IMG/VR virus record: IMGVR_UViG_3300005511_000086
Span: 1 to 23,074 of that record
Length of the DNA stretch: 23,074 nt
Reading direction: 5' to 3' (one strand)
From: a virus
The translations under genes and the position numbers were made by a program. The notes under the pieces are model-generated. The model was not told the origin of the DNA, searched no databases, and saw nothing but the letters and a program-made list of their open reading frames with translations. Shown piece after piece: positions 12,607-16,428 of this stretch (positions are counted from its first letter, which is position 1; the number at the start of each line of letters is the position of its first letter).

Positions 12607-12894
12607 TTATGCGGCCACCGGCTCATTGGTTACAGGCTTGCCGAGGCGCTGGAGGACTTCGTCGACCTCCTCGTCTCCGGGATTGCCGATGGGCCGGAGA
12701 ATGACGTCGGAAATGGCGTCGATGTCGCCCCATCGCGGAACCCGAACCCGAGGCCCTTCATACTCCCAGCATGGCGCGCCATCGCCAGTAGTGCCGCAAA
12801 GGACAGTCAGCTTGAAGATTCGATCAACGAGCCCAGCCATGCGTGCTACTGGGTCGTCAATGACACGAGCTAAACACCCAGGATGGCAGTTCAT
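12607..12894 (-). CDS. Hypothetical phage protein (95 aa)
   Basis: The protein begins MNCHPGCLARVIDDPVARMA and contains two Cys-rich points (C3, C7) and a middle CGTTGDGAPCWEYEGPRVRVPRWGDIDAIS (quoted in part) with a likely beta meander. It ends in an acidic tail. Small proteins with a CLARVI-type start and a CWEYEGP-like strand are common in phages of Proteobacteria, without known function. It overlaps the CII-like gene by 4 nt. It is followed by about 30 bases and a fresh ribosome site for the clamp-like gene. Confidence 0.8.
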   Translation of the reverse strand: MNCHPGCLARVIDDPVARMAGLVDRIFKLTVLCGTTGDGAPCWEYEGPRVRVPRWGDIDAISDVILRPIGNPGDEEVDEVLQRLGKPVTNEPVAA

Positions 12895-13382
12895 GCTGCG
12901 CTCCTCAAGTGAGGAGCTGGCTTGCCGGCCTCGTTCTCACGCGCTACCTCGCGCAAAAGTGCATTCATGTTGCGGATGACCTCGTGGGCATGGTCTTCGA
13001 TGACTTTGCGCTCGTTGTCCGAAATAAGGCCATCCGCGCGGGCGGCAGTGATGTCGGCCAGGACGGTTGAGGCGCCGGTTACCAGGCCCACGGTCGAGGC
13101 CATCAGCGAAGGCGCATCCTCATCGGTCTCGCGTGGCTCCAGCTTGACGAAGCCGCCCGCCGTGTTGTTCACCACGTTGACGTAGGCGTAGCAGTGCAGC
13201 GATTGCGCCTCGATGCACAGCTCGGAAATCTCGTTGGCTTCGATGGCGCCCAGCTTGTGGGTGGGTGCGCCGGAGAGCTTCTTGCGCAGCACCTCGTCGG
13301 TGTTGCCCAAGCGCTGGGCCATCGCTGGACGGCCACCTGGGAAGTGGTCGACCATCTTGCGAAGTGCGTCAATAGTATTCAT
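12891..13382 (-). CDS. CII/YmfL-type phage regulatory protein (163 aa)
   Basis: The N-terminus MNTIDALRKMVDHFPGGRPAMAQRLGNTDEVLRKKL has the FPGG-x3-MA-x-RLG pattern and a helix-turn-helix typical of the phage regulatory protein CII family (CP76/YmfL type). The remainder is helical, with DGLISDNERKVIEDHAHEVI. Members often influence the choice between lysis and lysogeny or activate early genes. The ATG at 13382 has AGGAG 7 nt upstream. The longer form from 13463 passes through an AT-rich intergenic stretch and is rejected. An imperfect inverted repeat (TTGTGCA/TGCAACAA, 13409-13425) lies about 30 bp upstream and might be its binding site. Confidence 0.82.
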   Translation of the reverse strand: MNTIDALRKMVDHFPGGRPAMAQRLGNTDEVLRKKLSGAPTHKLGAIEANEISELCIEAQSLHCYAYVNVVNNTAGGFVKLEPRETDEDAPSLMASTVGLVTGASTVLADITAARADGLISDNERKVIEDHAHEVIRNMNALLREVARENEAGKPAPHLRSAA

Positions 13383-13466
13383 GTCCGGTCTCCTGAGTTT
13401 TGGACGTTGTGCAGTGCAACAACTGGGATTTAAATAGCTGCCATGGAAAATCAAATCGATCACGAA

Positions 13467-14303: not shown

Positions 14304-14579
14304 TCAGGCCTTAACGAGATCCAGCAGCGGGCGGCCGCCCACGTGCGGCCATGCCTTGTCCTTGACCCGAACCCATGCGGCTGCAGGACAGAGCTGCTCG
14401 ACGGTCACTTTGGCGCCGGCCTCGAACTCGATCGCCACCGCCTTGTCGTCTGGGATGGGGCGTTTGCCCTTAAGCCATTGATTCAGCTGCGCCGGCTCCA
14501 CGCCGATCAGCCGTGCCAATTTCGCTTGAGAACCGACGATATCGCAGGCCTCTTCCAATGGTGGTTTTGGTGTATCCAT
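14304..14579 (-). CDS. cro: Cro-like repressor, YdaS/Cro-type HTH (91 aa)
   Basis: An HTH spans residues 8-55: EEACDIVGSQAKLARLIGV, then QLNQWLKGKRPIPDDKAVAIE. This is the YdaS/Cro form found in many prophages. It is the first gene of the leftward operon, divergent from the repressor gene, which defines the Cro position. The ATG at 14579 lies only about 7 nt beyond the predicted -10, so the mRNA may be leaderless; there is no Shine-Dalgarno sequence. It should bind the TGTAGC-N3-GCTACA operators and lower early transcription. The symbol is used by position and fold. Confidence 0.85.
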   Translation of the reverse strand: MDTPKPPLEEACDIVGSQAKLARLIGVEPAQLNQWLKGKRPIPDDKAVAIEFEAGAKVTVEQLCPAAAWVRVKDKAWPHVGGRPLLDLVKA

Positions 14580-14585
14580 TGGAAT

Positions 14586-14614
14586 ACTGTAGCACCGCTA
14601 CACGTTTATATCAA
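14586..14614 (-). promoter_or_regulatory. Leftward early promoter (PR-like) for the cro operon
   Basis: On the minus strand TTGATA (14614-14609) and TACAGT (14591-14586) are 17 bp apart, and TGC precedes the -10 (extended -10). The predicted start falls at about 14579, the first base of the cro ATG. Both operators O1 and O2 overlap it, so bound repressor would block it directly. Confidence 0.75.
14588..14602. promoter_or_regulatory. Operator O1
   Basis: Perfect 15-bp palindrome TGTAGC-ACC-GCTACA. It overlaps the -10 of the cro promoter. The same half-sites and spacing recur at 15823-15837. It is the likely target of the CI-like repressor and Cro. Confidence 0.8.
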
Positions 14615-14652: not shown

Positions 14653-15357
14653 ATGAAAATCTGGACTCAGAAAGAGGAGGCCGAGAAGCTGGCCAAGCGA
14701 TTCAAGGACTTGAAAGCTCGCGGGATGGGCCAGGCCGAGTTCGCGCGCGTTTTCGGCGTGCCTGGTGGAGCGTCCATGGTGACCCAGCACATCAAAGAAC
14801 ATCGCCCCATAAACTTCGATTCCGCGGTTGCATACGCCAAGGGTTTTGGCTGCTCACTTGCCGAGATCAGCCCGAGGCTGGAGCAGGAGGTGCGCGACAA
14901 AGCAAAAACGGCCGGCCCCCTGTTAGAAGCACCAGTAGCAAATTCCAGCATTGCGCACACCACGGGCTCACAAATAGACACAGGTGGCGTTGCGGACTCG
15001 ATACGCACGCTTCGTGACGCACTTCACGGTTTGGCCGATGAAGCACGGGAAGAGGCGGAACATTTGCTAGCAAAGATGGCCCGGCAGCCTAGCGGCAGGT
15101 GGGCTGAACGTCTGGTCGATTTGTTTGAAGCTGAGGGTCAGGAACAAGATGCGGAGGGCGTGCCAAGTAGTTCTACCAGTTCGGCTAAACCCCTAATCAC
15201 GGGGCCCACGGGGGACACCACAATGAAAAACCAGAGTGGATTAACCAGCAAACGCAAGCGACGCCTCGAAGGCGGATCGCTTCCCCGCAGAGAGGCCCAA
15301 GATGAACCCCGTAGCACTGGACGAGTACCGAAAGGAAAGACTCGCAGAATCGTTTGA
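14653..15357 (+). CDS. CI-like repressor without a visible S24 protease domain (234 aa)
   Basis: The N-terminal HTH is clear at residues 13-72: LAKRFKDLKARGMGQAEFARVFGV, then GASMVTQHIKEHRPINFDSAVAYAKGFG, then SLAEISPRL. The rest includes a Thr/Ser-rich linker and a helical domain (IRTLRDALHGLADEAREEAEHLLAKMA). From about residue 165 a low-complexity, basic tail follows. I find no Ala-Gly cleavage site context or Ser/Lys catalytic segments of LexA/CI proteases, so RecA-driven self-cleavage looks unlikely. It is divergent from cro and faces operators O1/O2. There is no strong ribosome site before the ATG, as for other low-level repressors. The tail overlaps the next gene by 56 nt. Confidence 0.82.
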   Translation: MKIWTQKEEAEKLAKRFKDLKARGMGQAEFARVFGVPGGASMVTQHIKEHRPINFDSAVAYAKGFGCSLAEISPRLEQEVRDKAKTAGPLLEAPVANSSIAHTTGSQIDTGGVADSIRTLRDALHGLADEAREEAEHLLAKMARQPSGRWAERLVDLFEAEGQEQDAEGVPSSSTSSAKPLITGPTGDTTMKNQSGLTSKRKRRLEGGSLPRREAQDEPRSTGRVPKGKTRRIV

Positions 15358-15715: not shown

Positions 15716-15732
15716 AAGACCCCCACCCCGAT

Positions 15733-15759
15733 AAAACCGCCCGCGAGGCGGTTTTTTAT
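15733..15759 (+). terminator. Rho-independent terminator after the repressor transcript
   Basis: AAACCGCC, a 5-nt loop and GGCGGTTT form a perfect 8-bp stem with a run of six T residues. It ends transcription of the repressor unit. A further hairpin GCCCG-AAAAA-CGGGC (15761-15775) follows at once and may insulate the next promoter. Confidence 0.92.
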
Positions 15760-15798: not shown

Positions 15799-15813
15799 TG
15801 TAGCACTGCTTGA
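15799..15813. promoter_or_regulatory. Operator O3 (imperfect)
   Basis: TGTAGC-ACT-GCTTGA: one perfect half and one with 4 of 6 matches. It overlaps the -35 of the rightward promoter. Centre-to-centre distance to O4 is 24 bp, mirroring O1/O2. Confidence 0.6.
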
Positions 15814-15839
15814 CACTGCTTATGTAGCGGTGCTACAGT
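15810..15839 (+). promoter_or_regulatory. Rightward early promoter (PL-like)
   Basis: Consensus -35 TTGACA (15810-15815), 18 bp, and extended -10 TGC-TACAGT (15834-15839). It lies just after the repressor terminator, with an AT-rich stretch including the palindrome GAAAATATTTTC (15778-15789) upstream that may act as an UP element. The predicted start is about 15846. It drives the acyl carrier protein gene and the recombination genes, and is covered by O3 and O4. Confidence 0.8.
15823..15837. promoter_or_regulatory. Operator O4
   Basis: Perfect 15-bp palindrome TGTAGC-GGT-GCTACA overlapping the -10. With the next three bases it is identical over 18 bp to the cro promoter core read on the minus strand (14602-14585). 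Confidence 0.8.
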
Positions 15840-15845
15840 ACCTCA

Positions 15846-16185
15846 TCGCAACCACAAAAGCGAAACACCCAAAGCCCGGCGATACGGGGCTGAAGCCAAC
15901 AGGATGCAAAGGCGGGGTTAGGGGATGTTCCCCGCAGTAGATGTGGTGCGGTTTGTAGAGGGTAGATAGGTGTGGCGGGCCCTAGGTAGCAAAGGGCTGA
16001 CGACGATGGTTCACCCAGTCTTGAACTGGGCGTGGAGTTGAAAAGACTTTAGGCAGCGAGAGCCAGTGCGGGTATCGGGCGACAGCCCGTCAGACCGCGA
16101 AACCATCACCGACCGCCAAGCTGGGTTTTGCGCCCCAGCCCACACCTACCTGCCCTCTGTCCGACCAACCGACAGGAGGGGCGCA
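15846..16185 (+). ncRNA. Long structured 5' leader before the acyl carrier protein gene
   Basis: This stretch of about 340 nt has no supported gene, only frames of under 20 codons. It can form several hairpins: AGCCC/GGGCT (about 15872-15890), GCGGGG/CCCCGC (15912-15935), GCCCT/AGGGC (15979-15997), CCCAGT-CTTGA-ACTGGG (16014-16030), CGGGC-GACA-GCCCG (16076-16089) and GCTGGG/CCCAGC (16120-16139). Early phage transcripts normally start the first gene soon after PL, so a leader of this length suggests a cis-acting RNA. Possible roles are an antitermination element like HK022 put, a regulatory leader, or a processed small RNA. I recognise no known family. The class is an inference from structure and position. 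Confidence 0.45.
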
Positions 16186-16428
16186 ATGCCAGTAGTAGAC
16201 ATCCAAGCCAGGGTGACGAAGATCGTCGCCGAGCAGCTGGGCCGCGAGGAAGCCGAGGTAACCCTCGACAAGCCATTCACAGAGCTGGGTGGCGACAGCC
16301 TCGACCAGGTCGAGCTGCTGATGGCCATCGAGGACGAATTCGGCATCCAGTTCGCTGATGACCAGTTCGACGACATCACCACAGCGCGGCAGGCAATCGA
16401 CGCCGTCACCGCCAAGGTGCAAGCATGA
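16186..16428 (+). CDS. Acyl carrier protein (80 aa)
   Basis: The sequence is a complete, acidic acyl carrier protein. [20 protein letters not shown] contains the phosphopantetheine attachment site, Ser38 in G-G-D-S-L-D, followed by the recognition helix and [16 protein letters not shown]. Host AcpS would convert it to the holo form, after which it could carry acyl chains or interact with host enzymes that bind ACP. AGGAGG lies 6 nt before the ATG at 16186; the frame is open further upstream but that part belongs to the leader. It is the first gene of the rightward early operon. No acyltransferase or ketosynthase is nearby, so it must rely on host partners or have a non-metabolic role. Confidence 0.95.

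Follow-up and report, generated by a model that had tools for sequence, protein, structure and literature searches.

What is encoded in the stretch of some 340 nt that separates an early phage promoter from the first gene of its operon? The window analysed here is a whole IMG/VR virus record of 23,074 bases (IMGVR_UViG_3300005511_000086), which may represent a fragment of a phage. On its plus strand, a sigma-70 promoter at 15810-15839 (TTGACA at 15810, an 18-nt spacer and TACAGT ending at 15839) is followed by a leader that extends to the ATG at 16186, where an acyl carrier protein (ACP) gene starts. The ribosome binding site and start codon of this gene lie at 16171-16188 (+), and its product, encoded up to 16428, matches PF00550 (E 4.7e-17) and phrog_5934. 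A sequence-only reading of the window had claimed that the leader contains no gene, and our inspection bears this out: the only ORFs found between the promoter and the ACP ATG are short ones or an upstream extension of the ACP frame, none of which is supportable. Operator half and full sites of the TGTAGC..GCTACA palindrome type overlap the promoter (15799-15839, +; TGTAGCACTGC at 15799-15809 and TGTAGCGGTGCTACA at 15823-15837), and an operator of the same type is found at 14588-14602, beside the divergent cro promoter and between the divergent regulators. Just 5' of the promoter, an intrinsic terminator at 15731-15757 (+), read from the sequence as CCGCC-CGCGA-GGCGG then TTTTTT, ends the transcript arriving from the cI side, and most of the relatives described below have a terminator at the matching position.

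The surrounding gene order gives the leader its context. The leftward operon comprises genes for a Cro-like repressor (14304-14579), CII (12891-13463), RusA, a methyltransferase, a replication protein and a DnaC-like loader. On the rightward side, a cI-like HTH gene (14653-15357) is followed by the terminator, the promoter, the leader and the ACP gene, with an Erf annealing protein and an exonuclease encoded further on. Reading this order by lambda logic, we take the leftward operon to correspond to PR and the rightward promoter to be the PL equivalent, which therefore places the leader at the exact position of lambda nutL and HK022 putL.

The leader had been described as containing at least six hairpins. 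It is indeed structured (the fold of 15838-16185 has an energy of -145.5 kcal/mol, z = -2.95), but it is better described as two domains: a core of about 105 nt at 15846-15950 and a multibranch RNA at 15958-16157. Only the first of these, the 5' portion of the leader, is conserved, and the hairpins of the 3' portion belong to a separate variable module. This large module (200 nt, +, z = -4.61) is closed by a helix of 18 positions with one mismatch (15958-15975/16140-16157). A search for its homologues returned nothing convincing, only three matches of ~26-32 nt, and it is a separate, very stable element found only in the window phage, where it occupies the place taken by other variable modules in other members. 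The folding energy of the core is unremarkable (z = -1.26), and energy alone would have missed it.

Relatives of the core, about 75 in all, were found in phages and prophages, mainly of Comamonadaceae. In a blastn search for distant matches, Acidovorax phage AP1 alone matched the core, across 100 nt at the 5' end of the leader, and the remaining matches to annotated phages and plasmids fell within or close to the ACP portion of the query. Patterns taken from the AP1 alignment then yielded further members in viral contigs and in Comamonas, Paracidovorax and Paenacidovorax genomes. Pattern-selected loci included chance matches that were removed by inspection, namely an IS-like end (L005, L014, L016 and L019) and coding or unrelated sequences (L012, L024-L026, L158, L165, L169, L175, L180 and L183). 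A covariance model, R1, which matches the window at 15834-15950 (+) with 108 bits, was then used for surveys seeded on a Comamonas jiangduensis genome. It had matches in 22 of the 53 genomes surveyed in the genus of that genome and in 12 of 401 in its family; the surveys of the order and class returned the seed genome only, a weak absence given that few candidates were scored per genome. Each phage record has one match to the core. We found no earlier report of this leader RNA in the open-access papers searched.

It had been suggested that homologous leaders be collected upstream of phage ACP genes. The homologues are instead defined by their position at PL, and the leader is followed by different first genes in different phages. 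An ACP-based search returned four ACP relatives whose fetched loci were without an R1 match, so the presence of the RNA is not tied to that of ACP. The phage-encoded ACP (16186-16428) is the first gene of the early operon in the window, and none of the other phages examined has it together with the RNA. Separately, three Comamonas prophages carry tRNA-Arg (TCT) genes within the same early operon (L113:3478-3554, L112:4834-4910 and L116:3825-3901).

Comparison of the relatives defines a fold in which P1 closes the core, P2 encloses P3 and P4, and P5 comes next, all on the plus strand. P1 (15847-15950) pairs 15847-15850 with 15947-15950 and 15852-15856 with 15942-15946; its support is moderate (p = 0.025), and it is fully recoded yet paired in the relatives L033 (ATCAAACAA/TTGTTTGAT) and L095. 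P2 (15867-15870/15915-15918) is 97.7% paired, with double changes in three of its four pairs, and reads ACCC/GGGT in most members, with GACC/GGTC as a variant in other members. P3 (15873-15877/15887-15891) has the conserved loop GGCGATACG and shows double changes in four pairs, which are all four of the pairs counted in alignment A4. For P4 (15895-15897/15911-15913, conserved loop AACAGGATGCAAA), support for the pairing is weak and conservation of the loop is strong; the loop motifs of P3 (GCGATNCG) and P4 (ACAGGANGC) are nearly invariant. P5 is a hairpin at 15921-15933, directly 3' of a conserved TTAG, with double changes in four of four pairs in alignment A1.

Both of these alignments were built without structure, A4 with MAFFT from 33 sequences. 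The covariation score of A4 was 0.321, compared with 0.105 for shuffled alignments (none of 500 shuffles scored as high) and at most 0.133 for slid controls; that of A1 was 0.305 versus 0.084. The scores thus lie above every shuffle and every slid control, and the check for covariation in homologous leaders that had been proposed for this locus came out positive. P2, P3 and P5 show strong compensatory change, and the core is a covarying RNA family. A conserved small ORF was absent: no reading frame stays open through the core in all relatives, and its length varies among them in steps that are not multiples of three, so we rejected a hidden conserved ORF. We likewise rejected membership in a known RNA family. 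Rfam 15 gave weak chance matches and none at gathering score in the window, and no match overlapping the core in 40 relatives, in keeping with the sequence-only reading, which had recognised no RNA family with this sequence.

In nearly all relatives, the core begins a constant few bases after the -10 box of the promoter, and most of the members missed by a strict promoter scan have a -10 box of the TTTAAT type, equally far from the core. The operators of the relatives are unrelated, and the RNA is therefore conserved independently of the repressor. What follows the core also varies. In L095, L097, L080 and L084 it is followed directly by a ribosome binding site and ATG, without a terminator, and in other members swapped modules extend the noncoding sequence behind it by hundreds of bases. 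Since some members have only the core and then a ribosome binding site, we consider the core to be autonomous.

These features bear on the idea that processing of the leader yields a small regulatory RNA that acts in trans, with repressor or host mRNAs among its possible targets and the conserved loops serving as sites for pairing or protein binding. Phage leader-derived RNAs are known, P1 c4 being an example that provides a precedent, and both the strong conservation of the loops and the presence of variable RNA modules behind the core would suit such a role. However, the core is not ended by a terminator, and its strict linkage to the PL start in combination with different operators, together with the terminator and boxA context described below, is a better fit to a function in cis. 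We therefore regard a trans-acting small RNA as very improbable.

The modules behind the core are of interest in themselves. In L001, L015, L017, L018 and L110-L116, the PL leader contains ~400-900 nt of noncoding mosaic 3' of the core, and such mosaic modules recur in varying order and position among the relatives. One of them corresponds to RF02917 (Burkholderiales-2 RNA), a module different from the core that is absent from the window and matches 3' of the core in eight relatives, ~50-60 nt after it in seven (L096:1675-1745, L104:1367-1441, L008:4163-4235, L091:817-891, and L100, L068, L090 and L079). All of these matches are antisense to the phage transcript. Rfam may list RF02917 in the reverse orientation, and the members of this family may be modules of phage leaders.

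If the core acts in cis, the sequences transcribed after it should indicate what it acts upon. In 139.7 kb of sequence 3' of the core, strict intrinsic terminators numbered 73 on the co-directional strand versus 25 on the other strand and 1.7 after shuffling. The excess is specific to the strict count, as a loose count had no strand bias (132 versus 141). In AP1 a strong terminator precedes the first annotated gene by ~20 nt, and L113, L017 and L015 are alike in this respect. The terminator-rich operons of the relatives are hard to express without antitermination. The same terminators before the first gene would also suit a regulated attenuator or a riboswitch-like leader whose control over them depends on a signal. 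Yet terminators recur after later genes too, and the four members in which the core leads straight into a ribosome binding site and ATG have none to control. Furthermore, we noted no alternative pairing between a terminator and the core, and the first genes have no function in common, leaving attenuation an improbable explanation. The operon of the window has no strict co-directional intrinsic terminator in the 7 kb downstream, and antitermination must therefore be argued by homology in this phage, unless the need is for Rho resistance of the untranslated leader.

A second indication comes from boxA. Of 51 members, 17 have the motif YTTTAAM at a distance of 25-50 nt behind the core (21 have it in a relaxed form), against a shuffled expectation of 0.045, and elsewhere within 350 nt it was seen only once. 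About 40% of the relatives carry a boxA that matches the one in the rRNA operons of the host, as Comamonas rrn leaders have the same boxA letters, GGTCTTTAAAAAT; the leader of the window lacks a boxA. The host rrn leaders in L154 and L155 read TCTTTAAAAATTAACAGCCGATAAG and the phage leaders in L090, L100 and L104 read TCTTTAAAAAGTCAGCCGCCGATG, so that the similarity between phage and rrn leaders may extend beyond boxA.

Both the position at PL and the boxA of a subset of members are also features of nut sites, which raises the question of whether the core is instead a binding site for a phage-encoded antitermination protein of the N type and inactive as RNA alone. N-type proteins are small and fast-evolving, making them hard to recognise, and a phage partner could be missed. 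Nevertheless, a covarying, multi-helix RNA of ~105 nt is far larger than boxB, and boxA follows the core here, whereas it precedes the hairpin in the lambda nut site. Moreover, when the proteins of seven phages (the window and six further records) were compared, no family was common to all and the most widespread occurred in four of the seven. The lack of a common protein, along with the differing first genes, points to an element that, like put, needs nothing but host factors, and we view dependence on an N-type partner as rather unlikely.

Given the evidence from boxA, terminators and synteny, we favour antitermination. The 5' ~105 nt of the leader is probably a cis-acting antitermination element, put-like or rrn-like, at the start of the PL-equivalent operon. 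According to this model, the core would be the first RNA made once the repressor leaves the operator, and would fold behind RNA polymerase. Only host factors would then take part, namely RNA polymerase and, for many of the relatives, also the Nus/boxA complex, and the altered polymerase would read through the terminators downstream. We infer antitermination, contact with polymerase or Nus factors, and action in the window's own phage, where function is deduced from the relatives. Put-like antitermination in cis, one of three options raised when the locus was first read, thus emerges as the best supported of them through the homologues, covariation, boxA, terminators and synteny, but sequence, fold and copy number all place the element outside the put family. 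More tentatively, and with a likelihood that we place somewhat short of even, the core may define a second class of antiterminator RNA, one that acts autonomously, shares neither sequence nor fold with put, serves as the PL control element of a large and protein-diverse set of Comamonadaceae phages, is often coupled to a host-type rRNA boxA, and has swappable noncoding modules behind it. If so, a covarying and unrelated RNA at the put position of otherwise dissimilar phages would mean that this strategy has arisen at least twice. Such an RNA would also provide a second system for studying the control of elongation by nascent RNA, in which ~75 natural variants already mark the important residues.

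The textbook case of a phage RNA that alters RNA polymerase with no phage protein involved is HK022 put, which antiterminates via the beta-prime zinc-binding domain. Like put, the leader core is a structured RNA (put-sized, at ~70-100 nt) with which the PL transcript of a lambdoid-type operon begins, with no evident phage protein and, in the relatives, with terminators downstream. HK022 putL is located just after PL, and put consists of two stem-loops with a triplex (PMC9378689). The core instead has several helices closed by P1, and occurs once per phage with no PR-side (putR-like) copy, whereas HK022 has two. The two families also differ in the boxA of many members and in the Comamonadaceae hosts of the leader RNA. 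No homology to put was found in sequence or model comparison: with filters off, the best R1 match in HK022 27-40 kb scored 8.0 bits (E 0.24), with none at PL. Lambda nutL shares the PL position and, with a subset of the relatives, boxA, but the leader family has neither a boxB-like single hairpin nor a recognisable N, places boxA after a structured core, and precedes diverse first genes (ACP in the window). The antitermination leader of rrn operons (boxB-boxA-boxC) differs in that its structure is unrelated to the core, over half of the leader members lack boxA, and the setting here is a phage early operon; it is alike in placing structure first and boxA second, in the boxA letters shared with Comamonas rrn, and in needing no dedicated phage protein.
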